From IMG/VR virus record IMGVR_UViG_3300027659_000022, positions 1 to 64,000 of that record: a stretch of 64,000 nucleotides of DNA; one strand, 5' to 3'. The notes beneath the pieces were generated by a model. It had not been told where the DNA came from and made no database searches. It was given only the letters and a program-made list of their open reading frames with translations. Origin of the DNA: a virus. A program made the translations under genes and the position numbers. Shown piece after piece: positions 8,690 through 61,919 of this stretch (position 1 is the stretch's first letter; every line of letters starts with the position of its first letter).

Positions 8690-8695
8690 TAAATA
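8690..8695 (+). promoter_or_regulatory. TAAATA late-promoter core, leaderless geometry
   Basis: TAAATA, then exactly 5 nt (ACTTA), then ATG at 8701, with no Shine-Dalgarno. T4-like initiation would start on the A of the ATG. Confidence 0.65.
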
Positions 8696-8700
8696 ACTTA

Positions 8701-8970
8701 ATGCAGGTAACCAGCGATCAAGATTTCTCCCAGTTGCGCAGACATATTAATCAATGGCGCACAAGATTTCCTATGTTTGCTACCGATGTTCAACAGATTG
8801 AACGCATGGTAGAACAGCACATCGTAGAGTTCAGCAACGCTGGTATACGCTACAGACAAACGCACAGGCGCAGCCATCTAGAACAGGCACAGCGAGAACT
8901 AGATGAAATAAACCGAATCGTTGCTACTGTGGAAAAAATGGAACTGATGAGTCTGCTGAGCCGCGGATAA
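8701..8970 (+). CDS. Small helical protein of unknown function
   Basis: An 89-aa protein, MQVTSDQDFSQLRRH to LMSLLSRG, rich in Arg/Gln/Glu and probably a helical hairpin or coiled coil. The frame extends upstream but would cross the gp23 terminator. The start at 8701 was chosen because a late-promoter core lies 5 nt before it. It is a monocistron between the gp23 terminator and the structural region; its stop codon is part of the next TAAATA core. No family was recognised. Confidence 0.65.
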   Translation: MQVTSDQDFSQLRRHINQWRTRFPMFATDVQQIERMVEQHIVEFSNAGIRYRQTHRRSHLEQAQRELDEINRIVATVEKMELMSLLSRG

Positions 8971-8973
8971 ATA
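8968..8973 (+). promoter_or_regulatory. TAAATA late-promoter core overlapping a stop codon
   Basis: The first TAA is the stop of the preceding gene. Expected start near 8979, giving a leader of about 62 nt with AAGGAGA before the ATG at 9041. Confidence 0.5.
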
Positions 8974-9040
8974 AAGTATCTAGAAGAATTATGCGGTACC
9001 CGCCGCGTAGACCTAGAACGTCAAACACAAGGAGAAACAA

Positions 9041-9424
9041 ATGGGACGTCCAGTAAAAAAAGATAAAAACGGTACGGTTGTATTTGGAGATTATACCACC
9101 ACCGACGTTGGTATTAAATGTGAAGCCTATATAGGCGGAAGTAATCAAACAGATGTTTTCATTGTCCAACAAAGAGGATCAAGCAGATATCTAGTACAAG
9201 ATAAATCTGCCGGTACAAAAGTAATTGCAAAACTAGTTGCAGGTACACCAGCAGCTGTTGGAGAAATGAGGATCACTGCTTTTACAGCAGGTGGCCCTGA
9301 TGCATCAGCAACATACATACGAAAACTTACTAAGAAAATTGCTATAGATTTCAGCGGAAACAGATATTCGTGGTTCTTAGATAACGACTCATCTGGTGAT
9401 CAGTTGATTATTGCTCCATTTTAA
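9041..9424 (+). CDS. Small beta-rich virion protein, unknown
   Basis: A 127-aa protein rich in Thr, Gly and aromatics with alternating beta-strand-like patterns (KCEAYIGGSNQTDVFIVQQR, RYSWFLDNDSSGDQLIIAPF). It heads the long run of fibre/adhesin genes and has a strong Shine-Dalgarno. A minor structural or decoration role is inferred from position and composition only. Confidence 0.6.
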   Translation: MGRPVKKDKNGTVVFGDYTTTDVGIKCEAYIGGSNQTDVFIVQQRGSSRYLVQDKSAGTKVIAKLVAGTPAAVGEMRITAFTAGGPDASATYIRKLTKKIAIDFSGNRYSWFLDNDSSGDQLIIAPF

Positions 9425-9437
9425 TATAGGATCGTAA

Positions 9438-12720: not shown

Positions 12721-12853
12721 TTTCCAAAACAACTAAATACTTTAATTGCTGTAGTTGACCAAATTACTGCAGGATCCGACTGTGGTAAACCGGCAAAGAG
12801 CGTGAGCTGAAAATCTGGTTAACGGTGAAACACCGGGTTATTTTGGAGAGCTA
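12721..12853 (+). promoter_or_regulatory. Intergenic leader with TAAATA and a possible RNA hairpin
   Basis: The longest gene-free stretch of the first 37 kb. A TAAATA core at 12734-12739 predicts a start near 12745 and a leader of about 109 nt, far longer than other late leaders here. The leader contains a small GC hairpin CGGTG-AAA-CACCG (12823-12835 region), imperfect pairing around CCGG/CTGG upstream, and ends with TTTTGGAGAG before the ATG at 12854. No known riboswitch was recognised. Confidence 0.45.
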
Positions 12854-13906
12854 ATGGCTATTGGTCGTATTTCCGGTCAGCTCTTGAAATCCAACTTGCT
12901 TCGTGCAGGCGAGAATTTGGCTTTCGAGACAGACTTACTCTATTTGGATGTTGTTAACTCTCGCATCGGGATAAAAACAGCAGCCCCTAGCACAGACCTC
13001 GATGTCAACGGTCACACTCGTTCAACTAATCTCACTGTAGATACACAACTAAATGTAGGCGATCTACACTTCACTGGTAATACCATAACCAGTGATTCTT
13101 CAACCATAAACTTTGCAGCGGCCGCAGGTGAAGCCACCGTTTATCATTCGAGACTGCAGATAGATGATCTGCAACTGCAGGGCAACACCATATCAACCAC
13201 TGTGAGCAACAGCAGCATAGAAATAGACCCCAACGGCACAGGTACTGTTAATATTATTGCTAATACCAATATCACCGGTAACCTAGGAGTCACAGGCAAC
13301 ATCTCTGCCACAGGCAATGTGGTTATAGGCGGTAACATACAGATTGGTGATGCACTTACAGATAATATTATATTCAATGCCAGCATCCGCAGCGATCTTG
13401 TGCCAGAAACTGACAACACCTATGATCTAGGTTCTGTTGCATTCCGTTGGAGAGCTGTTTACGCTGCTAATCTGTACACAGATATTATCACTGTACCTGC
13501 ACTAGATGTAGGTAACTTGATGTTCCGTGATAATGAAATCACTACCACAACAGGACAAGACCTATACATTGACGGCAATGGTGCAGGAGGTGTGAGATTA
13601 GGCAATTTCCGTATAGTAGATAATGTGATCACTAACATAACCTCCGGAGCGGTATCACAGATAGCACAGACAGGTATTGGATATTTTAAAATACAAGGCA
13701 CCAACGGTTTTGTGCCTCCTGTAGGAGCATCCGGAAATAGACCAACTGCATATGCTGTGTTAGGTATGACAAGATTCAACACTGATTCCGCTGCTTTGGA
13801 GATATGGGACGGCGCAGACTGGGCATCACCAGCAGGTGCATCAGGTGCTGTTTCTGTTGCAGAAGCCAACGACATCGCTGCTCAATTAGCATTGACACTA
13901 GGATAA
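12854..13906 (+). CDS. Structural protein, paralog of 11626 gene
   Basis: A 350-aa protein with MAIGRISGQLLKSNLLRAGE, then NLAFETDLLYLDVVNSRIGI, matching the start of the gene at 11626, with the same series of beta repeats (LGVTGNISATGNVVIGG) and the same C-terminal hairpin (GMTRFNTDSAALEIWDGADW). The C-terminus diverges (VAEANDIAAQLALTLG against a LGHVYTLMLG ending). A duplicated fibre-associated or baseplate-distal protein is inferred. It has its own promoter core and leader. Confidence 0.65.
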   Translation: MAIGRISGQLLKSNLLRAGENLAFETDLLYLDVVNSRIGIKTAAPSTDLDVNGHTRSTNLTVDTQLNVGDLHFTGNTITSDSSTINFAAAAGEATVYHSRLQIDDLQLQGNTISTTVSNSSIEIDPNGTGTVNIIANTNITGNLGVTGNISATGNVVIGGNIQIGDALTDNIIFNASIRSDLVPETDNTYDLGSVAFRWRAVYAANLYTDIITVPALDVGNLMFRDNEITTTTGQDLYIDGNGAGGVRLGNFRIVDNVITNITSGAVSQIAQTGIGYFKIQGTNGFVPPVGASGNRPTAYAVLGMTRFNTDSAALEIWDGADWASPAGASGAVSVAEANDIAAQLALTLG

Positions 13907-20253: not shown

Positions 20254-20259
20254 TAAATA
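20254..20259 (+). promoter_or_regulatory. TAAATA late-promoter core
   Basis: Located in the 34-nt gap between the giant fibre genes. Predicted start near 20265 gives a leader of about 13 nt containing GGAG before the ATG at 20278. Confidence 0.5.
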
Positions 20260-20277
20260 TAGGATACGGAGTAGAAA

Positions 20278-23200
20278 ATGGCAGAATTCAAACTAGGTAG
20301 AATTAGATTTGTATGGAAAAATGACTGGAACCCTTCCACCGTCTATTACATAGACGATGTGATAAGATACGGTGCCCGCACCTATATCTGTGCTGTAGGT
20401 CATACCTCCGCAGCGGATTTTAACACAGATCTAGAATACAGTCCTACCAAATGGAATCAAATGAGCGACGGCCAATCATGGACCGGCGATTGGAATACTT
20501 CTACATTCTACAAACTTAATGATGTGGTGAAATATGGCGGATTGTTATATATCTGCAATGACAGTCACACATCTACAGCCACAACAGCATCAGGTCTAGA
20601 AGCTGATCAAGCCAAATGGACATTATATGCCGAAGGATTTGATTGGAAAAATTCTTGGTCAGTCAGCACACGATACAAGGTAAATGATCTAGTTAGATAC
20701 GGCGGTTACACTTATGTATGTAATACCTATCATACATCTGCAGCCACAGCCGCATCGGGACTAGAAGCTGATCAAGCTAAATGGGACAGTTTCAACCAAG
20801 GCATAGAATACAAAGGTACCTGGGTCACCGCTACCAGATATAAACTCAATGATGTTATAAAATATGGTGCAGGACTTTGGATCTGTACCACACAGCACAC
20901 TGCTGATGCCGCATTCTTAACAGACAGCACTGCAGGTCGTTGGGCACAATTTGCAGAAGGTATTGAATTTGAAGATACATGGAGTTCTGGAACTCTATAC
21001 CAACCAGGAGACATAGTTCGATACGGTGGTAATCAATACGTAGCAAAAAATATTCACTCAGCGATTGTTCCATCGACAGGCACATCAAATTGGGATTTAT
21101 ACAGCGAAGGATTCAAATTTCAATCAGACTGGAATGATAGTACTTCTTACAAAATCGGTGAAGTTGTTAGACTTCGCGGATATACCTATCTAGCCACAGC
21201 AGACAATACTAATCAAGAGCCACCTAATGTCACATATTGGCAAAGACTTACTTCTGGTATTGCTTGGCAAGGAGAATGGACTGACGATATAAATTATAAA
21301 TTAGGCGATGCAGTGAGATTTGGCGCAAATGCCTATATCTGTCTTCTGGCACACAGATCAGAAGGTGACGATGGATCAACTATAGGACCAGAAGGCGGAG
21401 GTGCTGCTAATAGTAGACCAGATCAAGACAGCACAGGTACCTATTGGAGCTTACTAAACATCGGTTCTGAAACTGATATCTTATCAGTTCGTGGAGATTT
21501 AGTTTACTACAGCGGTTCGGGCCCTACAAGATTACCTATCGGACGTGAAGGTCAAGTTCTACGGTCCGACGGTGTAGACCCAGAATGGGCCACACTAGGC
21601 GAAATTGATCACAATTATTTTGTAGCACCACACGGCACAGATCTTCCTGCACCTATACATGGCAAGACCTGGGATAAGCCATGGAAGACTATTCGATATG
21701 CCTGTGAACAGGTAGAACGTGGCCCTAGAAATCCCGATGCCACATATCTATTAGAACTTAATCGTGTGTTCATACAACGAGAAACCACAGAATTCATACA
21801 GAATCAGATCACTAACAACATAGCACCGTTCACATCGGCATTTGTCTACGACGATTTCAAATGTGAAAGAGATGTGGGATTTGTTGTAGATGCATTGATC
21901 TATGATCTTAGACATGGCGGCAACGTCAAAACTAGAGGAGCAGCTAATGCTCTCATAGGTGGACTCAGCGCAGAAGAAACAGAAGCATATCCTGGTCTAG
22001 CTGCAGAATCAGACGAATCCATAGCGGCCTATAATTACATGGTCACTGTAGTCGAGGATGTACTAGCACAGACAGCTCCAGCAGTGAACTATCAGACCTT
22101 GAACGGTGACAATTCAACTGCCACAGTATCGCAGTATTTCAATGCTGACCTCACAGCAGAACCAGGAGCATATACCACAGCAGCTGGTTTAGTTGAAGTA
22201 ATCACTGATGCTATCACTGCCCGTGCAGCAGCAGTAACCGCTCCACAGATCGCAGCAGCATTGGCCAGTGTGCCTGCTCGTAGAAGTCCTAACAATCTTA
22301 TCAGCATTGCTACTGGGCAATACAGAGAAACGTTGCCTATCATTGTTCCAGAACAGACCTGCGTGATTGGAGACGAATTAAGATCCACAAACGCTGGTCC
22401 TGCTGGTAGCTTGACGAATCTTGCAGATTCTTACTATTCTATGGGTGCGCTGTCAAGACTAGAAACAGTAGTCAGTCAAATTATCACTGGCTCTAACGTC
22501 ACAGAAAGCTCAGGAAACACTGCTACACAGAGTGCAGCATTTCCGTATGCCAGCGCAGATGAACAGGCAGATATCACACAGCTGGTAAGAGTAATACAGC
22601 ATCAGATCGATTATCGAATCAGCACCACTCACATGGTTACCAACACAGATCCTACAGGTTACGATACTGCTTATCTCACAGGCTACGGTGATGCTAGAAC
22701 ACTGATAAAAGAAAACAAAGAATTTATCAAAGCTGAAATCATCGCCTTTATCACTGAAAACTACCCTTCAGTGAAATATTCTAGAACCATATGCAAACGA
22801 GACACAGGTTTTATTGTCGATGCTATGGTCTATGACTTGACCTATGGCGGTTTTACGCAGACACTGAATGCAGGATTAGCCTATTTTGACGGCACCACAG
22901 GGCTGGAAATTGACGCATCAGAAGTCACTGCTACTGTGGCTGCTTATGGTAGATTAAAAACTGTGATGCAAGAAATCGCTGCTAACACCACAGTGACCAA
23001 ATCCACAGGTAATGCTGCTACACAATGGACCGATGCGACTAATCTCACAGGTGGGTCTGCAGCCAGCGCATTCATCGGCGCTAACATTGACAACATCACT
23101 AACCTATTAGCAGGCGATTCCACCGCAGCTACTCCTCCTATCGTTACAGTGACTTCGATAACTGGCACAGACACCTTTGTTACTGCTGGTCACAGTCTAC

Positions 23201-43196: not shown

Positions 43197-43201
43197 CTAT
43201 C

Positions 43202-45033: not shown

Positions 45034-45064
45034 TTATGAGCAACTATTACCAGGAGAAAATGGG

Positions 45065-48000: not shown

Positions 48001-48529
48001 CCCATGGTTTGCACCAGCAGGAACACGTCGAGGTGGTATTACTAATGCAACAGCAGTGGGTTATATTGACGCTGCCACAGGTGAATTCCAAACTGTAGCT
48101 CTAAACGAAGGACAGCGTGATACATTGTATGATCTTAAGATCAATCCAATTCCATTCTTCAACGGAATAGGATTAGTAGCACACGGACAAAAGACTCGCG
48201 CAAGAAACGCTTCAGCATTGGATCGTATCAATGTAGCACGTTTAGTGGTATATCTACGCAGCCAGTTGAACAAGCTAGCTCGTCCGTATATCTTTGAACC
48301 CAATGATAAAATCACACGTGATGAAATCAAACAAGCTGTAGATAGTCTATTGTTAGAACTAGTAGGACTAAGAGCACTCTACGACTTTGCGGTTGTCTGT
48401 GACGAAAGCAACAACACACCTGCAAGGATAGATCGCAACGAACTGTATGTTGATATTGCAATTGAACCCGTGAAGGCGATTGAGTTCATTTACATTCCGT
48501 TACGTGTCAAGAACACAGGAGAAATTTAA
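45065..48529 (+). CDS. 18: Tail sheath protein (T4 gp18)
   Basis: A 1154-aa contractile sheath subunit. N-terminus 'MALQSPGVQVTVIDESFYTP' and C-terminal segments 'FPWFAPAGTRRGGITNATAV', 'LNEGQRDTLYDLKINPIPFF', 'RINVARLVVYLRSQLNKLAR' and 'FEPNDKITRDEIKQAVDSLL' are diagnostic of gp18. T4 gp18 is 659 aa, so about 500 extra residues are inserted centrally, including beta-type domains near residues 255-350 and 480-600 and several W-hairpins (GQLWYNPNFSEVDLMVHNGN). These likely decorate the outside of the sheath. The start at 45065 follows AGGAGAAAATGGG; the upstream extension of the frame overlaps the antisense gene's promoter region. Confidence 0.92.
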   Translation: MALQSPGVQVTVIDESFYTPAEPGTTPLIVVATAQDKTNGAGTGTALGTTAANAGKAFKITSQRELTETFGVPFFEKTASATPVHGSERNEYGLLTAYSLLGVSNAAFIVRADVDLDELEAQTDAPGANPTNGQWWIDTQATTWGIQEWNGAAATVAGGQKFTYKVPIVLTDADYPSKIVLNGNAPKEGVGKIGDYAVVFRTVEGDTSFGAEEEYARIYYKSPGAPASAGGNVAAVDAGEWVLVGSNEWQSSWPTVSGTAVNTSVTYDFYINNSLVTGTGTITQVASAINSGSIEGVSAQAISGRLYIYSNGETSATDDSTGADGRIVIAVGTSPLSNVGLTAGTYLNPRLAQQPHTSIPAFKLADNAGTVGGAATGSVWVKTTEPNNGARLRAKRWSSATLSWVSYEAPIYDTTSAALYYLDRSGGGAGIAEDALFTQSNAKETSGLDTTPATATFRLWRRNIAVGSATSITSNIIKNGTLGSSGTKTFTISESLKTTLALDTAKTITFTAVNTSADAELMAAAINAAGFTNIVASVTAVSLTSNRLIISHTLGGDFRLVDTVSTAVASMFTAYNIDTLAGTENFYAAESAVGGYLASGWKPLAASDPRFAASPDAPLNEPQDGQLWYNPNFSEVDLMVHNGNTWVGYRHSTAPYYEAATATLRNGYLPIVSASNPYKASVTANGDIWISTADLENYPTIYRYNTNLSDVPDLAQRWELVDKADDTTEEGVLFADARWNTAGTSTVASTIEDLITNNFLDPDAPDPALYPKGMLLWNLRRSGGNVKQYQNSYIDTTADNPRTSAATLAGSAFVSGSGESMETYATDRWTTASGNNEDGSGSFGRKAQRKVVTQALKSVVDTSQEIRDEERRNFNIIAAPGYPELLSNLVNLNIDRGVTAFVVGDTPLRLPSDATSLTTWGTNANLVTDNGDDGVVTYDEYLAVYYPNGFTTDLSGSPAVVPASHMMLKTITLSDNVSFPWFAPAGTRRGGITNATAVGYIDAATGEFQTVALNEGQRDTLYDLKINPIPFFNGIGLVAHGQKTRARNASALDRINVARLVVYLRSQLNKLARPYIFEPNDKITRDEIKQAVDSLLLELVGLRALYDFAVVCDESNNTPARIDRNELYVDIAIEPVKAIEFIYIPLRVKNTGEI

Positions 48530-49182: not shown

Positions 49183-49199
49183 TTGAACCTATAATCAAG

Positions 49200-49227
49200 A
49201 AAAGCTCGATTATTCGAGCTTTTTTTG
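49200..49227 (+). terminator. Rho-independent terminator after gp19
   Basis: A 10-bp stem AAAAGCTCGA / TCGAGCTTTT with TTAT loop and a run of T. A leaderless-type promoter core follows 5 nt later. Confidence 0.9.
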
Positions 49228-49232: not shown

Positions 49233-49238
49233 TAAATA
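49233..49238 (+). promoter_or_regulatory. TAAATA late-promoter core, leaderless geometry
   Basis: TAAATA, 5 nt (TTTGT), ATG at 49244; no Shine-Dalgarno. Confidence 0.65.
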
Positions 49239-49243
49239 TTTGT

Positions 49244-50347
49244 ATGGCAAACTATTTTACAAGATTTCTCACTGGTGTCGGCGAAGGTTTATTAACTCCT
49301 AAAGGTCAGAGCGCAAACTGGCGCCATGCCACCAAGTTGTTCATAGATGGCAACATGCGGCTGGCTCCTCGCACCAAGTTCAACTACTATGTGAGATTTG
49401 ATCTAGACAAAAGTGTGGTGCGTGTTCCTGCATTTACACAAAAACATCATGAAGAAATTGGCCTGCTAGTCAAAACAGTAGAACTACCTAAGTATAATTT
49501 TGATAGTGTGGTAAAAAATCAGTATAATAGAAAAAAATTAGTCTATAAGAATTTCAATTACGACCCTGTGTCCATAACCATGCACGATGATGCTACGGGA
49601 GTTATCAATGCGATGTGGGCTGTATATTATGGATATTATATTGCTGATAGACAATTGCCAGAATCGGCCTATTCTGAAACCAAATATCGTGCGGCTGATA
49701 CTCCTAAAGACAATTTCCGATACGGTATGGACAACGATGTCACTGCTGGATTTTTTAAATCAGTTAGCATTTATACCATGGCACGCAGAAGATTTTTAGG
49801 ATACACTTTGATTAATCCAAGAATCAAATCATGGAATCACGGTAACATGGATTATGCAGCTAGTGAATTTGCAGAAAGTACCATGACTTTGGAATATGAA
49901 TCAGTTAAATATTCAGCGGGACAGGTATCATTTAATAATCCCAAAGGATTCGCTACACTTCACTATGATTCTATGCCAAGCCCTATATCAGTGGCAGGTG
50001 GCGGCGTTGCTACACTAACCGGCGAAGGCGGTGTCCTAGACGGGCTAGAGCAGATATTCGGAAATATCGGCTCCGGTGCTGCGTTCGACAGCAAAGGAGG
50101 GTTTCTCAGCACTGCCATTGCATCAATAAACACCTACAAGAATTTTAAATCTCTAACACCGGCACAGTTGAAATCAGAAGCCATCAATATACTCAGCGAT
50201 CCAGGAAATATCTCATCAGCTATATCTACAGTAGGTGGAGTTATAGGTGCGGCATTTCCAAAGAGTGCGACACCGACGCCATCTACCACAGCTACTCAAC
50301 GACCGTTGGTAGGAGACTTCCCCCCAGCACCAGGAAATCAAGCATAA
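49244..50347 (+). CDS. Second tube-fold protein (gp19/gp54/gp48-like)
   Basis: A 367-aa protein. Residues about 50-235 follow the gp19 plan: 'FNYYVRFDLDK', 'LVKTVELPKYNFDSVVKNQY', 'NYDPVSITMHDDATGVINAM', 'MDYAASEFAESTMTLEYESV'. T4 has three tube-fold proteins (gp19, gp54, gp48); size and extra C-terminal Gly/Ala/Pro-rich domain suit a baseplate tube initiator or cap. Which of gp54 or gp48 it is cannot be decided by eye. It is transcribed separately from gp19. Confidence 0.65.
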   Translation: MANYFTRFLTGVGEGLLTPKGQSANWRHATKLFIDGNMRLAPRTKFNYYVRFDLDKSVVRVPAFTQKHHEEIGLLVKTVELPKYNFDSVVKNQYNRKKLVYKNFNYDPVSITMHDDATGVINAMWAVYYGYYIADRQLPESAYSETKYRAADTPKDNFRYGMDNDVTAGFFKSVSIYTMARRRFLGYTLINPRIKSWNHGNMDYAASEFAESTMTLEYESVKYSAGQVSFNNPKGFATLHYDSMPSPISVAGGGVATLTGEGGVLDGLEQIFGNIGSGAAFDSKGGFLSTAIASINTYKNFKSLTPAQLKSEAINILSDPGNISSAISTVGGVIGAAFPKSATPTPSTTATQRPLVGDFPPAPGNQA

Positions 50348-51161: not shown

Positions 51162-51638
51162 ATGACCAAAAGACTTGAAGAATTGTTAAATCTAGAAACC
51201 ACAGAACACACGGCAGCAACGCCAGTTGAAGCACCTACACATGAACAGGTACAGAGCCTGGATGACAGCTATCGCAGAGTGGCCGAAATCACTAGAGGAC
51301 TGCCGCAGATCAAAGAGCTCGATGAGTTAGATGATAGAGAACTAGACGAGCTGGCTAAAAAAGCAGAAGCTGCATATGATGATCTAATGGATCTTGGTAT
51401 GAACGTAGAAGTTAGATATGCAGGGCGTATCTTTGAAGTAGCTGCTAGCATGATGGGCAACGCTATCACTGCTAAAACCAATAAGATAGATAAAAAACTC
51501 AAGAGCGTAGATCTACAACTAAAGAAGCTGAAAATAGACAATGACGCAGGTAATGAACAAGACGGTGTCATCAACGGTGCTGCCTATGTGATCACAGACC
51601 GCAACGAGCTGCTGAAAAAATTAAGCGGAAAAGCATAA
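51162..51638 (+). CDS. 16: Small terminase subunit (T4 gp16-like)
   Basis: A 158-aa Glu/Asp/Lys-rich helical protein. 'LPQIKELDELDDRELDELAK', 'AAYDDLMDLGMNVEVRYAGR', 'FEVAASMMGNAITAKTNKID' and 'KLKSVDLQLKKLKID' resemble T4-like gp16, which forms a ring, recognises DNA and regulates gp17. T4 gp16 is 164 aa. It is separated from gp17 by three other genes. Its stop is part of a TAAATA core. Confidence 0.7.
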   Translation: MTKRLEELLNLETTEHTAATPVEAPTHEQVQSLDDSYRRVAEITRGLPQIKELDELDDRELDELAKKAEAAYDDLMDLGMNVEVRYAGRIFEVAASMMGNAITAKTNKIDKKLKSVDLQLKKLKIDNDAGNEQDGVINGAAYVITDRNELLKKLSGKA

Positions 51639-51641
51639 ATA
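51636..51641 (+). promoter_or_regulatory. TAAATA late-promoter core, leaderless geometry
   Basis: Overlaps the gp16 stop codon; 5 nt (CAAGT) then ATG at 51647, without Shine-Dalgarno. Confidence 0.65.
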
Positions 51642-51646
51642 CAAGT

Positions 51647-52213
51647 ATGAAAACTTTTAAAGAATATCTCACTGAAAACAAAAAAATCTACAGCTTCAAG
51701 GTCAAAGTTGCTGGCGACATTCCTGAGAATTTTCAGGAAAGTCTCAAGACCAAACTAGAACGCTGCAAGGTCGTGACCTTTGAAAAGATGAGCACAACAC
51801 CTATACAGAAGTTTCCGCTGGATTTTCCAAACAAAAGCAACATGGAAGTCACTGTGTTTGAAGTTGTTACAGAATATCCGGTAACTCCTCCAGAAATTGC
51901 TGTTATGATCAAGGGCTCCGGAATCACTGAAGACTGTTTTCGTGTACGCGGCAGCGGCGAACCTACAGAAATGGATCAGCTGCTCATGGACAATGAGCCC
52001 ACAGGTGATGCACTGTTAGATGAACAGGACATGGACAAAAGCACAGGAAAAATCAAACACAAAGATTATTTCGGAGATGATTTCAACAAGAGTTTCTTAA
52101 AAGATTTAACTAAAGCTGCCAAAGATCGCAAGAAGGATGGCATCAACGTGGAATACAAACTGCCTAAGGGCAAACAAGACAAAGCAGGTGCTAAAAGCGC
52201 CCTAGGGAGTTAA
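51647..52213 (+). CDS. Virion-associated protein, unknown
   Basis: A 188-aa protein starting MKTFKEYLTENKKIYSFKVK. 'KTF-x-E(Y/F)L' starts are common among T4-like head and core proteins. The middle is alpha/beta ('MEVTVFEVVTEYPVTPPEIA') and the C-terminus is Lys/Asp-rich. A structural or capsid-internal role is inferred from the N-terminus and neighbours. Confidence 0.6.
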   Translation: MKTFKEYLTENKKIYSFKVKVAGDIPENFQESLKTKLERCKVVTFEKMSTTPIQKFPLDFPNKSNMEVTVFEVVTEYPVTPPEIAVMIKGSGITEDCFRVRGSGEPTEMDQLLMDNEPTGDALLDEQDMDKSTGKIKHKDYFGDDFNKSFLKDLTKAAKDRKKDGINVEYKLPKGKQDKAGAKSALGS

Positions 52214-53687: not shown

Positions 53688-53717
53688 CAAATAGGCTCTA
53701 CGGAGCCTATTTTTTTC
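53688..53717 (+). terminator. Rho-independent terminator before gp17
   Basis: Stem ATAGGCTC / GAGCCTAT (extendable by A-T pairs) with TACG loop and seven T residues. A leaderless promoter core for gp17 follows at 53720. Confidence 0.9.
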
Positions 53718-53719: not shown

Positions 53720-53725
53720 TAAATA
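53720..53725 (+). promoter_or_regulatory. TAAATA late-promoter core, leaderless geometry
   Basis: TAAATA, 5 nt (AACAT), ATG at 53731; no Shine-Dalgarno. Confidence 0.65.
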
Positions 53726-53730
53726 AACAT

Positions 53731-55317
53731 ATGGGAAAATCACTAGACGGCGTACTGATTAAAAAGGCTCATGCTCAGACCAAATACACAATGGATGAGG
53801 TCAAGCATCTTGAAGCCTGCTTGGATCCTGTCACAGGACCTTTGTATTTCTGCACTAACTTTTTAAAGATACAGCATCCAACTCGTGGCGCTATCAATTT
53901 TGAACCCTACGAATATCAAGAAAGATTGATAAAAAGCATACACACTAATAGGCAGTGTATAGCCATGCTGCCTCGCCAGATGGGCAAGACCACCTGTGCT
54001 ACTGGTTATCTGCTTTGGTACACCATGTTCATACCTGACTGTCAGGTGTTGATAGCTGCCCACAAGTATGAAGGTGCCAAAGACATCATGGACAGATATA
54101 GATTTGGTTATGAAAATCTTCCAGACTTTATTCGTGCAGGAGTTTATTCATACAACAGAAACACCATTGAATATGACAACGGTGCTAGGATACAGGCCAC
54201 AACTACAACAGAAAACACTGGTCGTGGTAAATCTCTTTCATTGATCTACTGCGATGAGTTTGCGTTTGTGCAGCCGCCAGAAAAAGCCAAAGAGTTTTGG
54301 ACAGCTTTGAGTCCCACACTAGCCACTGGTGGTAAGTGTATAATCACATCCACACCAAACTCAGACGAAGATCAGTTTGCGTTGATATGGGCCGAGGCCA
54401 ACAAGCGTTTTGACGAATTTGGCAACGAAGCCGAAGTAGGACAGAACGGATTTGCTTCATACACAGCTCATTGGTCAGAGCATCCAGATCGAGATGACGC
54501 ATGGGCCAACGTGGAAAGATCTAAAATTGGTGAAGAACGTTTTCGTCGTGAGTTTGAATGTGAATTCTTGATCTTTGATGAAACGCTGATCAACTCTGTG
54601 AAACTGGTCGAGTTAGCAGGCTCAGATCCCACAATGACCATGGGACAAACACGCTGGTACAAAGACATAGATCCCAAGGCCACCTATCTAGTGGCTCTAG
54701 ATCCCAGCCTAGGCACAGGCGGAGACTATGGTGCCATACAGGTCTATGAAATGCCTACAATGACCCAGGTAGCAGAATGGCATCACAACCAAACTCCAGT
54801 GCAGCAGCAGGTCAAACACATGCGAGAAATACTGAGATACATACACGATCGTGGAGAAGAACAGGGCGGTGTACCACAGATCTATTATTCAGTGGAAAAC
54901 AACAGCCTCGGTGAAGCTGCGCTGATAGTGATCAACGACATAGGCGAAGAAAACTTCTACGGCCTGTTTCTCTCAGAACCCATACGCAAAGGACACATAC
55001 GCAAGTTCCGAAAAGGATTCAACACCACGCACCGTTCAAAGATCACTGCCTGCAGCCAACTGAAAAATCTCATTGAAACTAATAAAATGAGCCTTAAATC
55101 AAAACCCTTGATTTCAGAACTCAAGACTTTTGTAGCCACTGGATTGGGTTTCAAGGCCAAAAGCGGTGAGCATGACGACCTAGTATCCAGCACACTGTTA
55201 ATCATACGTATGGCCGATGTACTGGCCGATTGGGATCCGCAGATCTACGATAAAATGACTGAAAAAGTCTCCGAAGAATCTATGCCTATGCCGATCTTTG
55301 TTAGCATGGGCCTTTGA
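53731..55317 (+). CDS. 17: Terminase large subunit (T4 gp17)
   Basis: A 528-aa DNA-packaging motor. Walker A is PRQMGKTT (residues 81-88), Walker B LIYCDEFAF (Asp175/Glu176), coupling motif TSTPN (207-210). The nuclease domain has Asp324 in VALDPSLGTGGDYGAI, Glu389 in YSVENNSLGE and Asp482/Asp483 in SGEHDDLVSS, matching T4 Asp401/Glu458/Asp542. T4 gp17 is 610 aa; the N-terminal tail is shorter here. It is transcribed from a leaderless-type promoter after a terminator, separate from gp16. Confidence 0.95.
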   Translation: MGKSLDGVLIKKAHAQTKYTMDEVKHLEACLDPVTGPLYFCTNFLKIQHPTRGAINFEPYEYQERLIKSIHTNRQCIAMLPRQMGKTTCATGYLLWYTMFIPDCQVLIAAHKYEGAKDIMDRYRFGYENLPDFIRAGVYSYNRNTIEYDNGARIQATTTTENTGRGKSLSLIYCDEFAFVQPPEKAKEFWTALSPTLATGGKCIITSTPNSDEDQFALIWAEANKRFDEFGNEAEVGQNGFASYTAHWSEHPDRDDAWANVERSKIGEERFRREFECEFLIFDETLINSVKLVELAGSDPTMTMGQTRWYKDIDPKATYLVALDPSLGTGGDYGAIQVYEMPTMTQVAEWHHNQTPVQQQVKHMREILRYIHDRGEEQGGVPQIYYSVENNSLGEAALIVINDIGEENFYGLFLSEPIRKGHIRKFRKGFNTTHRSKITACSQLKNLIETNKMSLKSKPLISELKTFVATGLGFKAKSGEHDDLVSSTLLIIRMADVLADWDPQIYDKMTEKVSEESMPMPIFVSMGL

Positions 55318-55323
55318 TAAATA
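55318..55323 (+). promoter_or_regulatory. TAAATA late-promoter core, leaderless geometry
   Basis: Directly follows the gp17 stop codon (TGA-TAAATA); 5 nt (TACTT) then ATG at 55329, no Shine-Dalgarno. Confidence 0.65.
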
Positions 55324-55328
55324 TACTT

Positions 55329-57197
55329 ATGGACGCAAGAAATAACATAGCAACAGATTTATTCTACAAGGTACGTAGTCGGTTTTCTGGCCTTAAATTA
55401 GGTGCGGAAACCGGGGAAATAACCATCAATCCTGAAGAAGCTCGATTCTTTGATTTTGACTACATGGAAGGAAAGACTCCCATAGGACATGTCAGTATCA
55501 GTCTTGCAGAACCCAACTCGATGAAGGTATATTTCAGTCATGGTATTTCTGAAGGCATGGATGAAAAACAAAAGGTCAATTGGTACGGTTTCCTCAAAGA
55601 GCTGCGCCAATTCGCTAAACGTAGACTACTGAGTTTCGACACCAGAGACATAGCCAAAGACAATCTAGATCGCAGGGACTACGAATTTCTAGTGCAAAAC
55701 TCACAGCCCAAGCAGACCAAGCAGGACACTATACAAAAACCAGTCGGAGAAAGTATGATGGCAGAAAGCAATATGTATGGTAGTAGAACCATGAGCTACC
55801 AAAAATTAATGGACACTAGATTGATTATCAAACACAACCAAGCGGTCATGGATGAGAATCAGCCAGGTGCAAGAACACGCCACATAGGTGCGTTGTTCGT
55901 GGAAAACCAAGACGGTGAAAGATTCAAATATCCTTTCATCCATCTAGCAGGTGCTAGAGCCATGCAGAGACATGTGGCCAACGGTGGCGTTCCCTATGAT
56001 GATCTAGGCAAGAGCATAATTGGCATGAGCGAAGAAATCGCACAGTTAAAGAGTTTTGGTAATTATGTTGTACGTAACGATCTTATGAACTCAGATACAA
56101 ATTCAGTAGTAGAAAGATCAACCACTTACCTAAATCAATTGCGCGAGCAGATCAAGGCACTGAGCAAACAGAGCCATTACGAAGCATACAAAGAAAACTT
56201 TCAGGCCTATGACAGTGAAGAAATTCCACAGGACGTGGTAGAAGATTTCAAAGAAAAATTCACTGTAAAATCATTCAAAGAAGATATCGCATCAGTGTTT
56301 CCTGTGTTGTACAGACTGATGAAAGAAGGAAACACCATAGGCTACGACGACATAGTCGCAATGACACAGGAAGAAATAGCCAACGAAGATCTAGAAGTCA
56401 GTGAAGACGCCTATGATCCATTTGATCAATTTGAATCATGGGTGATGGCACTGGGTGAAGAATCCGCTATCACCTCAGAAGATCCAGAAGCACAGGCCAC
56501 TGCCGTCCAGAGCCTACAAGAACTAGTAGGACAGCATTTCCCCGCAGGCGTAGATGGCACTAATGCCATAGAAAGCCTCAAAGGCATCATAGAAGATCCA
56601 GAACTATACAAACGCATCAAAGCACAGGCCGCCGAAGACGCAGACTCATGCGTGAGACCATTGGTCAAAGAATGGTTAGAATTAAATGCTCCAGAAACTC
56701 TAGAGCAATTAGATTTTGGTGATATGGTCGATGAGCCGGAAGCAGCCCAAGGAGGTGACCAAACTGCCCCGGAAGGAGAACCAGTAGCAGTTGATCCAGC
56801 CGCAGCCGAAGTTCCTGTGCAACAACCAGTTCCGCAGGAAGCTATAGATCCTGACAATCCCAGAGATTATGAGAGACCTGCGATTGATAGAAAGAAATCT
56901 GGTCAAGCACCATTAACAATGAAAGACGTCAAAGACAAAGATGAAAAATCAGAACGTGATCGCAAAGAACGCTCAGGCATAAAAGTTGAAGAACTAGCAG
57001 AATTTATTACATCATTCTATGACAGGCAGTCAGGTACGTTCCCTAAAGGACCTGAAGGTGTAGTGATAATGGTAGGCAAAAAGTTTGGCGAACAGGCAGA
57101 ACAAGTTGCTCGAAAGTTTGTAGAGCGCATGGCCCCACAACAGCAAGATCCACAGATTTCAGAATTGGCTCGTATCAGAGAACTAGCAGGCTATTAA
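55329..57197 (+). CDS. Large conserved virion-associated protein, unknown
   Basis: A 622-aa protein. N-terminal alpha/beta region ('LFYKVRSRFSGLKLGAETGE', 'GHVSISLAEPNSMKVYFSHG', 'WYGFLKELRQFAKRRLLSFD') resembles an unnamed family common in marine T4-like phages. The middle is helical and acidic ('EYLNQLREQIKALS'-like), and a Pro/Ala/Glu linker (about residues 490-545) precedes a basic helical C-terminus ending ARIRELAGY. The TTG-initiated longer form was rejected in favour of ATG 55329, set by the late promoter. It may be a prohead or portal-associated protein; no enzyme motif. Confidence 0.6.
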   Translation: MDARNNIATDLFYKVRSRFSGLKLGAETGEITINPEEARFFDFDYMEGKTPIGHVSISLAEPNSMKVYFSHGISEGMDEKQKVNWYGFLKELRQFAKRRLLSFDTRDIAKDNLDRRDYEFLVQNSQPKQTKQDTIQKPVGESMMAESNMYGSRTMSYQKLMDTRLIIKHNQAVMDENQPGARTRHIGALFVENQDGERFKYPFIHLAGARAMQRHVANGGVPYDDLGKSIIGMSEEIAQLKSFGNYVVRNDLMNSDTNSVVERSTTYLNQLREQIKALSKQSHYEAYKENFQAYDSEEIPQDVVEDFKEKFTVKSFKEDIASVFPVLYRLMKEGNTIGYDDIVAMTQEEIANEDLEVSEDAYDPFDQFESWVMALGEESAITSEDPEAQATAVQSLQELVGQHFPAGVDGTNAIESLKGIIEDPELYKRIKAQAAEDADSCVRPLVKEWLELNAPETLEQLDFGDMVDEPEAAQGGDQTAPEGEPVAVDPAAAEVPVQQPVPQEAIDPDNPRDYERPAIDRKKSGQAPLTMKDVKDKDEKSERDRKERSGIKVEELAEFITSFYDRQSGTFPKGPEGVVIMVGKKFGEQAEQVARKFVERMAPQQQDPQISELARIRELAGY

Positions 57198-57275: not shown

Positions 57276-57304
57276 TTGACCTTGATAAATAAAAAGCGCA
57301 TAAT
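57276..57304 (+). promoter_or_regulatory. Sigma70-type promoter of gp32 with nested late core
   Basis: TTGACC (57276-57281), 17-nt spacer, CATAAT (57299-57304); each box matches consensus in 5 of 6. A TAAATA late core lies inside the spacer at 57286-57291, so early and late start sites would be about 14 nt apart. A leader of about 50-60 nt with strong AGGAGG precedes the ATG at 57361. Confidence 0.8.
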
Positions 57305-57360
57305 AAAACATGTGCATAAGGCATATAAACATTTTAGGCATAACATAGGAGGCATTTAAA

Positions 57361-58338
57361 ATGGCATCACTCGCAGAAATCCGTGCTAAACTTCAAGAAG
57401 CACAATCAAAGTCCACAGGACAATCCACCGGCGGTGGAGACAACGCAATTTACCCACACTGGAACATGCAAGAAGGCAAGGAAGCGGTTATCCGTTTGCT
57501 ACCTGATGGCAATCCCAACAACACATTTTTCTGGGTAGAACGTGCGATGATCAAACTGCCATTCGCTGGCATCAAAGGTGAGACTGATAGTCGTCCAGTT
57601 CAAGTGCAGGTTCCATGCGTGGAAATGTACAACGACGGCACAGCTTGTCCGATCCTCGCAGAAGTGCGTGGTTGGTTCAAAGACAAAAGTCTTGAAGAAA
57701 TGGGTCGTAAGTATTGGAAAAAGCGTTCATACATTTTCCAAGGCTTTGTAGTTGAAGATCCAATTGGTGAAGACAAGACGCCAGAAAATCCTATCCGTAG
57801 ATTTATCATTGGTCCTCAGATCTATAATATCATCCGCTCGGCATTGATGGATCCAGAACTAGATGAACTGCCAACAGACTTCCTGAAAGGTCTAGACTTC
57901 CGTATCGCTAAAACATCCAAAGGCGGATTCGCTGACTACTCAACATCTAAGTGGAGCCGCAGAGAACGTGCTTTGAGCGATGTTGAAAAAGCAGCCATTG
58001 ACACTCACGGACTGTTTGATCTCAGCGGGTTCCTTCCTAAGAAGCCTACAGATGTTGAGCTTAAAGTGATGAAAGAAATGTTTGAAGCGTCAGTGGATGG
58101 CGAAGCATATGACATGGATCGCTGGGGACAGTATTTCAAACCAGCAGGTATGGGACAGGCCACTGGTGATCCTAACAAAGCATCTGCTCGTGCAGCCCCA
58201 GTTGATGAAGATGCAGATGACACACCCGCTCCTGTAGTCAAACCTGTAAGTGCTCCTGCAGCACCAGCGGCTGCCGCTGAAGGTGCTAGTCGTGCGCAAG
58301 ATATCCTTGCAATGATTCGCAATCGTCAAAAGCAGTAA
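57361..58338 (+). CDS. 32: Single-stranded DNA-binding protein (T4 gp32)
   Basis: A 325-aa helix-destabilising protein. 'MASLAEIRAKLQEAQSKS' is the N-terminal cooperativity segment; 'WNMQEGKEAVIRLLPDGNPN', 'FFWVERAMIKLPFAGI', 'CVEMYNDGTACPILAEV' and 'MGRKYWKKRSYIFQGFVVED' form the DNA-binding core. The C-terminal tail is acidic (Ala/Pro/Asp). The T4 zinc site is only partly kept: Cys86 and Cys96 have the spacing of T4 Cys77/Cys87, but the third Cys (T4 Cys90) is Leu99. AGGAGG is 9 nt upstream. Heads the replication/recombination operon. Confidence 0.92.
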   Translation: MASLAEIRAKLQEAQSKSTGQSTGGGDNAIYPHWNMQEGKEAVIRLLPDGNPNNTFFWVERAMIKLPFAGIKGETDSRPVQVQVPCVEMYNDGTACPILAEVRGWFKDKSLEEMGRKYWKKRSYIFQGFVVEDPIGEDKTPENPIRRFIIGPQIYNIIRSALMDPELDELPTDFLKGLDFRIAKTSKGGFADYSTSKWSRRERALSDVEKAAIDTHGLFDLSGFLPKKPTDVELKVMKEMFEASVDGEAYDMDRWGQYFKPAGMGQATGDPNKASARAAPVDEDADDTPAPVVKPVSAPAAPAAAAEGASRAQDILAMIRNRQKQ

Positions 58339-59485: not shown

Positions 59486-59709
59486 AAGAAGATTTAATCG
59501 CCGATATATGGAATGTAGTGATTGGTCATATTCCAGAAAAACAACGAGCTGATGTTGCCGCTGATTTTGTTAATACACTATTAGACTACGGTATCAAAGA
59601 CTCTGTGTTAGAATCACTGCAAGGAGTGGATCCTTATTTAGACGATGCTATCGATTACGCAATCGATGGTGAGGAAATCGAAGAAGAATACGAAGACGAC
59701 GAGGAATAA
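59482..59709 (+). CDS. Small acidic protein between uvsX and uvsY
   Basis: A 75-aa protein: 'DIWNVVIGHIPEKQRADVAA', 'DYGIKDSVLESLQGVDPYLD' and an acidic tail 'GEEIEEEYEDDEE'. It starts in the uvsX ATGA overlap and is followed immediately by uvsY, so it belongs to the recombination operon. The acidic tail could mimic DNA or contact gp32/UvsX/UvsY; function is unknown. Confidence 0.7.
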   Translation: MKEDLIADIWNVVIGHIPEKQRADVAADFVNTLLDYGIKDSVLESLQGVDPYLDDAIDYAIDGEEIEEEYEDDEE

Positions 59710-60165
59710 ATGAATTGGTATGATCGAGTTTCCAAGGATATTTCGAATATTCCTGATGCTGTGGCCTATTATGAAGCTGAATTAATTTCAGCAAAACAAG
59801 ATGTCCGTGTAACGGGAAACATCGAGAAAGCCTCTGCGCAGATGCCTGGCATCGTAGAAACTCGGTTCAATCAACTTCAAGAAATTGAAGGTATTCTAGA
59901 ATATCTCAATATCGAACTTCGAAGACTGCGTAGTCAACACTTTCGTAAATATCTCGAAAACTATCAACGTCAGCTCAGTTCCAGAGACTGTGAAAAGTTT
60001 GTGGAAGGTGAAGCTGATGTTGTAGATTTTGAAAAGATCATCAATGACTTTGCTCTGCTACGTAACAAATGGCTAGGCATTATCAAAGCCTTAGACATCA
60101 AGCAATGGCAGTTGAGTAATATCGTCAAACTTAGAACTGCAGGACTAGAAGACGCTACTCTATGA
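59710..60165 (+). CDS. uvsY: UvsY recombination mediator
   Basis: A 151-aa protein. 'ASAQMPGIVETRFNQLQEIE', 'GILEYLNIELRRLRSQHFRK', 'YQRQLSSRDCEKFVEGEADV', 'LLRNKWLGIIKALDIKQWQL' match the T4 UvsY plan, including 'L(T/S)SRD-x3-(F/Y)V-x-G' and 'L-x-RNK-x-LGI(V/I)K'. T4 UvsY is 137 aa. It loads UvsX onto gp32-coated ssDNA. Starts directly after the preceding stop; overlaps the epimerase (ATGA). Confidence 0.9.
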   Translation: MNWYDRVSKDISNIPDAVAYYEAELISAKQDVRVTGNIEKASAQMPGIVETRFNQLQEIEGILEYLNIELRRLRSQHFRKYLENYQRQLSSRDCEKFVEGEADVVDFEKIINDFALLRNKWLGIIKALDIKQWQLSNIVKLRTAGLEDATL

Positions 60166-61130
60166 CAATTTTAGTAACTGGTGGCCTAGGATTAATAGGG
60201 CACCATGTAGTTAAGAAATTAGAAGATCTCGGTGAACAAGTGGTAATCACTGACACCCGAACCAACTACGGTATTATACCTCAGGCCGAAATCGATTATC
60301 TAATTTCTCAGAGATTAAAATCAATCACGACCGATAAAATACATCGCATTGACATCAGCGAACGAGATAGTGTAGAATGGTTGTTCAGGCACTACCGACC
60401 TTCAGCAGTGGTACATCTAGCATCATTTCCCCGGCAAAAAGTAGTTAATGCTGATCCTGCGCAAGGCGCTAAAGTCATGAGCGAAGGACTACTGAACCTA
60501 TTAGAGGCCAGTGTGAAATATCAATGTCCGAGATTCCTGTATGCCAGTTCTAGCATGGTCTATGGTGATTTCAAAGATTATGTCAAAGAAGATGCTGTTT
60601 GCCGTCCACAAGGTCAGTATGGTATAATGAAATTAGCAGGCGAGTGGTTAGTACGAGATTATCAACGTAAAGGAATCGAGCATACTATTTTTAGACCCAG
60701 TGCGGTGTATGGTCCATTAGATGTTGAGGACCGCGTGATTTCAAAGTTTCTGCTCACTGCCATGAGAGGCGGTGTATTAAAGGTAAACGGGATCCACGAA
60801 ACTCTAGATTTCACCTATGTGGACGATGCAGCCCAGGGCATGGTAAAGGCACTGCTGAGTAAAAACACCAAAAACAAAACATACAATATAACCAAAAGCC
60901 ACAGTAAAACTTTGTATGCAGCCGCACAATTGGCCGTGGAGTTAGTTGGCAATGGCAGCATAGCCATCGGTGATAAAGATCAAGATTTTCCTAGTCGAGG
61001 TGCCTTAGACATTTCTGCTGCACGTCAAGATTTCGGATTTGATCCGAAGATAGATATAGAGGAAGGTTTCGAACGTTATTATCATTGGTTGAAAAATTCT
61101 TCGTACTATCAAGCCAATCTTTTAGATTAG
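60162..61130 (+). CDS. NAD-dependent sugar epimerase/dehydratase
   Basis: A 322-aa extended SDR enzyme. Rossmann 'ILVTGGLGLIGHHVVKKL' (GGLGLIG at residues 7-13), 'SAVVHLASFP' , Ser129-131 in 'FLYASSSMVYGD', catalytic Tyr153/Lys157 in QYGIMK, and 'FRPSAVYGP'. These features define nucleotide-sugar epimerases/dehydratases (UDP-glucose epimerase type). The exact nucleotide sugar is unknown. It overlaps uvsY and begins the sugar cluster. Confidence 0.9.
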   Translation: MTILVTGGLGLIGHHVVKKLEDLGEQVVITDTRTNYGIIPQAEIDYLISQRLKSITTDKIHRIDISERDSVEWLFRHYRPSAVVHLASFPRQKVVNADPAQGAKVMSEGLLNLLEASVKYQCPRFLYASSSMVYGDFKDYVKEDAVCRPQGQYGIMKLAGEWLVRDYQRKGIEHTIFRPSAVYGPLDVEDRVISKFLLTAMRGGVLKVNGIHETLDFTYVDDAAQGMVKALLSKNTKNKTYNITKSHSKTLYAAAQLAVELVGNGSIAIGDKDQDFPSRGALDISAARQDFGFDPKIDIEEGFERYYHWLKNSSYYQANLLD

Positions 61131-61140
61131 TCATTATATG

Positions 61141-61158
61141 TGCAGATAAATATCTGCA
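61141..61158 (+). promoter_or_regulatory. Perfect 8-bp palindrome containing TAAATA late core
   Basis: TGCAGATA-AA-TATCTGCA is a perfect inverted repeat (61141-61158). It contains TAAATA at 61147-61152 with 5 nt (TCTGC) before ATG 61158; no Shine-Dalgarno. Its end overlaps the start codon. It may be a regulatory operator or hairpin, or coincidental. Confidence 0.5.
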
Positions 61159-61919
61159 TGAAAACCTTAGTACTTGTCACAGGGGGATTCGATCCTCTAC
61201 ACTCCGGGCACATCGCCTACTTTCGTGCAGCAAAGCAACTAGGAGACACACTGGTTGTTGGTGTTAATTCTGATGCGTGGTTGGTTCGTAAAAAAGGTCG
61301 AGCATTTATGCCTTGGAACGAACGCATGAATATCGTCAAAAATATCAAAGACGTAGATTTTGTCTTGGAATTCAATGATGATGATGGCAGCGCCAAACAG
61401 GCAATAAAATTAGCCAGACAAACATGGCCGGATCATAAAATTATATTTGCCAATGGCGGGGACCGCACAGACGCTAATATTCCGGAAATGGAGTTTGAGG
61501 ATCGTAATCTCGAATTTGCATTTGGAGTTGGCGGATTCGATAAGGCCAATTCCAGTTCGTGGATATTAGAAGAATGGAAAGCTCCTAAGACCGGCAGGGC
61601 ATGGGGTTACTATCGTGTGTTACATGAAGTTCCTGGAATGAAAGTCAAAGAGTTGACCGTTGATCCCGGTAAAAGTCTGTCTATGCAAAGACATCAATCT
61701 AGATCAGAATTTTGGATAGTCAGTGAAGGGCAGGCGATGGTAAACAGAGCTACACCTTTGAATTTTGATTTACCTACTGCAGAATTAAACAAACACGAAC
61801 AATTACATATCGTTCAACAAGAATGGCATCAACTCACAAATCCTTACAGCCATCCATTAAAAATTGTAGAGATACAATACGGTGATCAGTGCGTAGAAGA
61901 GGACATAGAAAGACGATGA
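61158..61919 (+). CDS. Cytidylyltransferase fused to mannose-6-phosphate-isomerase-type cupin
   Basis: A 253-aa two-domain protein. Residues 1-135 have the nucleotidyltransferase motif 'VTGGFDPLHSGHIAYFRAA' (HSGH at 15-18), 'VVGVNSDAWLVRKKG' and 'NGGDR', as in RfaE/glycerol-3-phosphate cytidylyltransferases. Residues 145-253 are a cupin 'RAWGYYRVLHEVPGMKVKEL', 'GKSLSMQRHQSRSEFWIVSE', 'EWHQLTNPYSHPLKIVEIQY', GDQCVEEDI, as in type II phosphomannose isomerases. The fusion suggests activation of a sugar phosphate. Start set by the leaderless core; overlaps the next gene (ATGA). Confidence 0.82.
   Translation: MKTLVLVTGGFDPLHSGHIAYFRAAKQLGDTLVVGVNSDAWLVRKKGRAFMPWNERMNIVKNIKDVDFVLEFNDDDGSAKQAIKLARQTWPDHKIIFANGGDRTDANIPEMEFEDRNLEFAFGVGGFDKANSSSWILEEWKAPKTGRAWGYYRVLHEVPGMKVKELTVDPGKSLSMQRHQSRSEFWIVSEGQAMVNRATPLNFDLPTAELNKHEQLHIVQQEWHQLTNPYSHPLKIVEIQYGDQCVEEDIERR

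Follow-up and report, generated by a model that had tools for sequence, protein, structure and literature searches.

Why does the hexamer TAAATA stand exactly five nucleotides (nt) ahead of start codons that have no Shine-Dalgarno (SD) sequence in a T4-like virus? The question is raised by bases 1-64,000 of the 86,365-base virus record IMGVR_UViG_3300027659_000022 (hereafter the window). Among named phages, its large terminase (gp17) is nearest to those of PA5oct (54%) and Sinorhizobium phage Phosso (52%), so the record belongs to a T4-related group. From comparison of sequences, we consider it very probable as a whole that one type of late promoter serves two classes of genes here. TAAATA would be the core of a gp55-type late promoter in the window phage. 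In a near set of genes, RNA would start on, or within about 2 nt of, the A of the ATG; these mRNAs would be leaderless and the ribosome would have to initiate at a 5'-terminal AUG. In a far set, the same box would lie 18-114 nt upstream and the transcript would have a leader with a strong SD. The class would be a conserved, selected property of each gene. Below, Nx denotes x nt between TAAATA and the start codon, and near and far are counted as N4-N6 and N13-N44, respectively. SD values are duplex energies to the anti-SD in kcal/mol, and an SD of -4 or better is called strong.

The window has 30 TAAATA, 24 on the plus strand and 6 on the minus strand, and an ATG follows at N5 in 12 of them on both strands together; each other spacing from 0 to 30 nt is found between zero and two times. 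TAAATA tops all hexamers for N5-ATG, and the next, AGCTGC, reaches 8 of 69. No GTG or TTG lies at N5 of any TAAATA in the window, and the remaining 22 kb of the record contains no N5 site. One alternative is that AT-rich intergenic DNA brings TAAATA and ATG together by chance. TAAATA often includes or follows intergenic stop codons, and one of the 12 matches, ATG 2124, is probably such a case, being inside a long open reading frame (ORF) with a frame of only 33 codons and SD-like bases (-6.1). In 200 order-3 Markov sequences, however, N5-ATG occurred 0.8 times on average and 4 times at most. In PA5oct, which is more AT-rich, only 3 of the 96 boxes near an ORF have a start at N5, and the near placement is kept in orthologs. 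Chance is refuted by the spacing and ortholog tests.

Nine of the 12 N5 sites open genes, eight on the plus strand and one on the minus strand, with ORFs of 89-680 amino acids (aa). They are listed first below, followed by three starts with other short spacings.

8690..8970, plus strand: TAAATA 8690-8695, N5, ATG 8701; 89-aa ORF
37502..39555, plus strand: TAAATA 37502-37507, N5, ATG 37513; 680-aa baseplate wedge/tail fibre connector-like protein
43191..43960, plus strand: TAAATA 43191-43196, N5, ATG 43202; gp13-like head-tail adaptor (phrog_211, 4.9e-33)
44616..44962, minus strand: TAAATA 44962-44957, N5, ATG 44951; 111-aa ORF
49233..50347, plus strand: TAAATA 49233-49238, N5, ATG 49244; tail-tube-like protein (phrog_4542, 3.9e-12)
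51636..52213, plus strand: TAAATA 51636-51641, N5, ATG 51647; 188-aa protein, weak match to a head protein family (phrog_14802, 6.1e-4)
53720..55317, plus strand: TAAATA 53720-53725, N5, ATG 53731; gp17 large terminase
55318..57197, plus strand: TAAATA 55318-55323, N5, ATG 55329; 622-aa virion structural (head) protein (phrog_13484, 2.2e-15)
61147..61919, plus strand: TAAATA 61147-61152, N5, ATG 61158; cytidylyltransferase-like protein with a mannose-6-phosphate isomerase C-terminal domain, a nucleotidyltransferase by PHROG/Pfam matches
3941..4193, plus strand: TAAATA 3941-3946, N4, ATG 3951; 80-aa ORF
41777..43181, minus strand: TAAATA 43181-43176, N7, ATG 43168; virion structural protein, divergent partner of gp13
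33212..33760, plus strand: TAAATA 33212-33217, N3, ATG 33221; 179-aa ORF without SD

The original prediction had named N5 sites at ATG 8701, 32853, 37513, 43202, 49244, 51647, 53731, 55329 and 61158 and an N4 site at ATG 3951, and all of them were found. It had also expected a leader of 2 nt for the minus-strand gene beside gp13, and the TAAATA at 43181 with a conserved ATG at N7 gives this predicted leader. Four sites had been overlooked: N5 at 44951 (minus strand), 27567 and 2124, and N3 at 33221. The last is a doubtful member of the near class and had no ortholog among the 108 loci searched. At 43176-43204, two divergent TAAATA promoters stand back to back, with a predicted leaderless or near-leaderless gene on each strand.

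Orthologs were taken from IMG/VR loci with a gp17 83-100% identical, the best 80 of 588 stretches encoding a relative. Two of five large relatives (G001-G005), G001 and G003, were added in pieces (28 loci), giving 108 loci in all. L016 and L088 come from G001 and G003, so some of the counts, among them those for the SD class in distinct contexts, take these two records twice; per-record ortholog counts leave duplicate pieces out. Because many loci are near-identical, distinct upstream contexts are a fairer count than loci. The gp17 gene is near in 72 of 78 loci (N5 in 59, N4 in 11, N6 in 2) and in 26 of 28 distinct contexts, with no box in five loci and N53 in one. The spacing is N5 in 7/7 loci for gp13-like 43202, exactly N5 in 51/51 for 49244, N5 in 59 of 60 for 51647 (N7 in one) and in 37 of 38 for 61158 (no box in one). 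It is N5 in 68 of 75 loci for 55329 (N4 in six, N7 in one) and in 22 of 27 for minus-strand 44951 (N4 in four, none in one). Orthologs of 8701, found solely in G001 and G003, are both at N5, and those of 3951 in the same two relatives are at N4 and N5. These counts support the expectation of a putatively leaderless structural subset, including gp17 and gp13, beside a leadered remainder.

In 35 loci, chosen by hand among the 80 so as to reduce near-duplicates, all variation in codons 3-7 of gp17 is synonymous, which means that coding selection begins at the ATG; the spacer length varies from 4 to 6 among loci. The five gp17 loci without a box (L072, L074, L075, L076 and L085) share one common context that has an SD. 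In this lineage the terminator and TAAATA are gone and an AAGGA-type SD is in place, and it is a natural switch between both start modes. In the other exception, L040, the box is 53 nt off and the SD is -3.3. Just upstream of the 44951 box, at 44973-44991 read on the minus strand, AAAGGG is followed a few nt on by AAAAGG; a loose pattern finds this pair in 20/20 distinct contexts.

These spacings bear on a second alternative, in which transcription would begin at varying positions, or 1-3 nt upstream of the predicted +1, and leaders of 1-6 nt would make the mRNAs near-leaderless, not strictly leaderless. Orthologs with spacings of 4, 6, 7 and 8, the gene divergent from gp13 (43168; N7 in 5/5 loci, SD duplex -3.1) and two 65%-identical gp17 relatives at N7 fit this idea. 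A start site of this kind is nevertheless rather unlikely in view of the sharp mode at five, with 59 of the 72 near gp17 loci, 51/51 loci for 49244 and 68/75 for 55329. The 5-nt spacing of the original prediction thus holds as an excess but not as an exclusive distance, since orthologs use 4-8.

If the near genes are leaderless, what distinguishes the genes whose box lies further upstream? They are as follows.

4832..5697, plus strand: TAAATA 35 nt before ATG 4873; SD -8.0
8968..9424, plus strand: TAAATA 67 nt before ATG 9041; SD -8.0
12734..13906, plus strand: TAAATA 114 nt before ATG 12854; SD -6.4; link between box and gene uncertain
20254..27558, plus strand: TAAATA 18 nt before ATG 20278; SD -6.1
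27556..27901, plus strand: TAAATA 19 nt before ATG 27581; SD-led
32842..33218, plus strand: TAAATA 41 nt before ATG 32889; SD-led
45028..48529, plus strand: TAAATA 31 nt before ATG 45065; tail sheath gp18 (phrog_10581, 4.6e-222); SD -7.4
57286..58338, plus strand: TAAATA 69 nt before ATG 57361; single-strand DNA binding protein (SSB; phrog_1192, 2.2e-61); SD -10.2

As had been claimed, the starts at 4873, 9041, 12854, 20278, 27581, 45065 and 57361 have an SD (duplex -6.1 to -10.2), and the nine N5 gene starts lack one (-2.1 or weaker). When the first ATG opening an ORF of at least 80 aa was taken for each TAAATA, a strong SD was present at 0/10 near and 5/5 far starts in the window (Fisher p 3e-4), at 0/20 and 26/39 in G001 (p 2e-7), and at 1/20 and 24/35 in G003 (p 3e-6). 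The SD class is also kept among orthologs. The sheath gene is far with an SD in 15/15 distinct contexts, its box being 31-36 nt away in 28/28 loci, and 4873 is so in 2/2. SSB has an SD in 22/22 distinct contexts, none with TAAATA within 60 nt. The SD class is kept at 48532 (18/18), 52972 (12/12), 44016 (20/20) and 52217 (31/31 contexts without TAAATA, of 32 distinct contexts), and capsid and sheath are SD-led in G001 and G003 too. Start codons at N4-N6 opening ORFs of at least 80 aa are 51 ATG, 1 GTG, 2 CTG and no TTG, as would be expected if a 5'-terminal AUG is required (PMC9031893).

The two remaining N5 sites, 27567 and 32853, are AUGs at the predicted +1 of SD-led promoters. Each opens a 10-codon ORF, the first overlapping the start of gene 27581 and the second ending 3 nt short of gene 32889. 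These real genes are SD-led and begin 14 and 36 nt downstream. The mini-ORF of the original prediction at 32853 is a true N5 site, but it is grouped with 27567 since gene 32889 is SD-led. As a general upstream-ORF device, the +1 AUG of SD-led promoters was rejected: it is found at 2/7 in the window but at 0/31 in G001, 0/28 in G003, 0/17 in Pelagibacter phage HTVC008M, 0/32 in T4, 0/32 in Phosso (part) and 0/13 in syn9.

A third alternative is that UAAAUA is an AU-rich translation signal, an S1-type enhancer, acting on leadered mRNA from upstream at a fixed distance from SD-less AUGs. The hexamer does occupy -11 to -6, a position from which an AU-rich enhancer could work. The box at 51636 overlaps the stop codon of the preceding gene and that at 55318 abuts one, so readthrough mRNA is likely there, and in some orthologs of 51647 and 44951 SD-like bases precede the box. 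At three other near genes, however, an intrinsic terminator ends just ahead of the box.

8657..8682, plus strand: terminator ahead of the 8690 TAAATA; RNA fold -16.0 kcal/mol, z -5.2
49196..49227, plus strand: terminator ahead of the 49233 TAAATA; RNA fold -18.6 kcal/mol, z -6.2
53689..53716, plus strand: terminator ahead of the gp17 TAAATA; RNA fold -14.8 kcal/mol, z -6.9

At gp17, a hairpin and a T-run ending 3 nt before the box are present in 26/26 distinct near-box contexts. At 49244, the T-run ends 5-6 nt before the box in 24/24 distinct contexts, and a hairpin of -4 kcal/mol or better lies within the 40 nt kept in 21 of these 24. The stem sequences differ among relatives. Since the terminators abut TAAATA at gp17, 49244 and 8701, the upstream transcript should stop there, and no room is left for a leader or another promoter. 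By a simple scan, most near boxes have no upstream terminator; one precedes 3/10 near boxes in the window, 3/20 in G001, 3/20 in G003 and 2/13 in HTVC008M, and 0/5, 2/39, 0/35 and 0/14 far boxes, respectively. The same hexamer also lies 18-41 nt ahead of genes with their own SD, as a promoter would. It is the known gp55 box, and gp55 is encoded by relatives. ORF starts at N0-N3 number 2, 3 and 2 in the window, G001 and G003, against 10, 20 and 18 at N4-N5. Taken together, these points make the enhancer explanation very unlikely.

The promoter explanation draws its geometry from T4, in which the late promoter sequence TATAAATA occupies -13 to -6 (PMC1524935), with matching positions and no -35 element in PMC2988020. 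With five spacer bases, +1 would by this numbering fall on the A of the ATG, and the original prediction agrees with it. The TAAATA core is present throughout, and the box-to-+1 distance is taken from T4 numbering. At 39 N5 promoters no -35-like conservation was found; information reaches no more than 0.63 bits, at a single base 5 nt ahead of the box, and upstream of that base it does not exceed 0.35 bits. A gp55-like sigma (phrog_234, E 7.9e-26 to 2.8e-25) is encoded by all five large relatives, and in G001 (locus L183) its neighbour is an ORF resembling gp47 by eye. Leaderless translation of the near genes is thus suggested by the position of the box, and it is made more credible by the upstream terminators, the near-exclusive use of ATG and the gp17 lineage that swapped TAAATA for an SD.

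How far does the arrangement extend? In a survey of 22 records, the N5 count was compared with the mean of spacings 7-16. It was 12 against 0.6 in the record itself, 20 against 2.3 in G001, 18 against 2.1 in G002, 16 against 2.2 in G003, 14 against 2.5 in G004 and 13 against 1.1 in G005. The proposed enrichment of 5 nt over other spacings is therefore seen here and in 5/5 large relatives. N5 ATGs opening ORFs of at least 80 aa number 9 in the window, 16 in G001 and 14 in G003. HTVC008M has 14 against 3.0, and Mosig, a T4-like Pelagibacter phage, has a weak, borderline 11 against 4.9 (p 0.012, uncorrected for the 22 records). The remaining 14 records range from 0 against 0.1 to 15 against 9.5, and only T4, OC and Yut3 reach a nominal p below 0.05. 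Ochrobactrum phage OC (7 against 2.9, p 0.029) and Stenotrophomonas phage Yut3 (3 against 0.5, p 0.014) are borderline, again uncorrected. T4 has a raw count of 10 against 4.6 (p 0.02), yet only 2 N5 starts of ORFs of at least 80 aa. A universal T4-like feature is rejected, because the following phages show little or nothing: T4, PA5oct, Phosso, syn9, P-SSM2, P-SSM4, S-RIM44, KVP40, CBB, RaK2, RHph_Y68 and Melnitz. The ORF-based count among these low-signal phages covers T4, PA5oct, Phosso (part) and syn9. The two-class arrangement proposed for the window phage is thus supported, but not its restriction to that phage, since HTVC008M and relatives share it.

HTVC008M resembles the window phage in its TAAATA-N5-ATG excess and in its SD-led capsid, sheath and tube genes. 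It differs in that other genes are predicted to be leaderless (DNA end protector, head closure, a baseplate wedge and others), that gp17 has neither box nor SD, and that the box is often ATAAATAG. Between 5001 and 50000, 9/9 N5 ATGs are annotated coding sequence (CDS) starts, seven on the plus strand and two on the minus strand. Four of its genes were followed in 124 IMG/VR loci including HTVC008M itself. Among orthologs of at least 70% identity, the box is kept in 5/5 distinct contexts for gp2, 6/7 for gp4, 6/6 for 19456 and 22/22 for 31132 (N5-N6). Below 70%, it is kept in 4/15 for gp2 (SD in 8 of the other 11), 9/17 for gp4 (SD in 2 of the other 8), 7/7 for 19456 and 7/18 for 31132 (the other 11 at N8-N9, no SD). 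At 18914-18945, HTVC008M also has a divergent TAAATA pair, serving the DNA end protector and head closure genes, both predicted to be leaderless or nearly so.

Several observations weigh against the explanation by two promoter classes. About one-third of far genes in G001 and G003 have no strong SD, and the operon-internal genes 50714 and 51162 have neither SD nor TAAATA; a missing SD alone is therefore no signature, and the position of the box is. SD-like bases lie upstream of TAAATA in 11/25 (51647) and 12/19 (44951) near distinct ortholog contexts, and ribosomes on a readthrough mRNA might start from these. Among SD-led starts, too, ATG predominates (42/47), so the ATG bias discriminates weakly. 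With a spacing of N4, +1 would fall on the U of AUG if the start did not shift by one base, and the single ortholog of 37513, for which G001 and G003 are the only source, has N8. Of the 14 N5 sites in HTVC008M, 10 were checked, and one of them, ATG 97647, is inside a CDS. The SD contrast of that phage is weak (strong SD at 2/13 near and 8/14 far starts, p 0.046). No gp55 gene was found in the record of the window itself, an 86-kb fragment.

What would such a division be for? Leaderless mRNAs are probably initiated less efficiently than strong-SD genes, and box placement may thereby set dosage. SD-led capsid, sheath and SSB against predicted leaderless terminase and neck genes fit this idea; the predicted leaderless tail-tube-like 49244 has no obvious fit. 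We tentatively propose, as a single joint reading that is possible but less than even in our judgement, that the box-to-start distance is a heritable two-state dosage switch in T4-like phages of some aquatic bacteria. Proteins required in small numbers (terminase, neck, end protector, baseplate wedge) would have leaderless starts, and those made in bulk (capsid, sheath, tube, SSB) would be translated from SD leaders. At least two clades would have acquired the switch independently, perhaps by taking advantage of some change in the host initiation machinery late in infection.

Other candidate causes were rejected. An alphaproteobacterial host is unsupported, as Phosso (Sinorhizobium) and RHph_Y68 (Rhizobium) lack the signal. 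A phage-encoded ribosomal protein bS21 as helper of leaderless initiation does not correlate with it: bS21 is encoded by 2/5 relatives, by HTVC008M and by Mosig, but PA5oct, Phosso and Melnitz, which have no clear N5 signal, encode it as well. The bS21 genes of G001 and G004 lie at G001:C1:15466-15624 and G004:C1:292290-292445. As for a phage initiator tRNA, a CAT-anticodon tRNA is present in G001 and in G003; that of G001 does not have an anticodon stem of the initiator type, judged by the usual features of initiator tRNAs. Bacterial contigs were unusable for naming the host, as only two 65%-identical loci were found, and they fall in metagenome-assembled genome bins of two different groups. 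Permuted transfer-messenger RNA genes are predicted in G001 (L148:6573-7023) and HTVC008M (L139:5120-5461).

In the accessible text of the open-access literature searched, we found no description of leaderless T4-type late genes. Late-promoter prediction failed in pelagimyophages (PMC7029224), and boxes abutting start codons may account for this. For Melnitz, 15 late promoters were predicted, and 'leaderless' appears solely in a reference title in the accessible part of that paper (PMC9004378). PMC5312081 remarks that transcripts of phages frequently have no leader, with reference to one E. coli ribosome paper, and the part available has no data on T4-like phages. Lambda and P2 have known leaderless genes (PMC4633059). 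The novelty would therefore lie in the combination of two known things, the T4-type late promoter and leaderless genes. In T4 itself, this textbook late promoter is used mainly by genes with a leader and an SD. Here it appears to act also as a selector of translation mode, with the mode of each gene conserved, in a group of large aquatic phages and in phages of the ocean bacterium SAR11. If this is true, leaderless translation would be a routine part of large-phage assembly, and the box gives a rule for start-codon choice in gene calling. The cultured pair of HTVC008M and Candidatus Pelagibacter ubique HTCC1062 makes the proposal testable.

Besides HTVC008M and Mosig, three known systems are close to the one proposed here. 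It is like the T4 late promoters (TATAAATA, used with gp55/gp33/gp45) in its TAAATA core, the lack of a -35 element, the structural genes served, a box ending 5 nt before the predicted +1, and a gp55 homologue, here in the relatives. It is unlike them in that the first bases of the box are degenerate (one TATAAATA is found in the window); in T4, 41 of 57 boxes near an ORF of at least 80 aa lie 13-40 nt ahead and 2 are at N5. Like the leaderless mRNAs of mycobacteria, Caulobacter, Sinorhizobium and Deinococcus (in part from PMC9031893), the near mRNAs have a predicted 5' end at the start codon, no SD and a preference for AUG. Unlike those, they would come from a late promoter of a viral sigma type, which divides one phage's structural genes into two classes. 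Lambda cI and P2 (cited in PMC4633059) provide phage genes translated leaderless, but few of them, whereas here a conserved set of late genes, predicted to be leaderless, stands beside SD-led ones.

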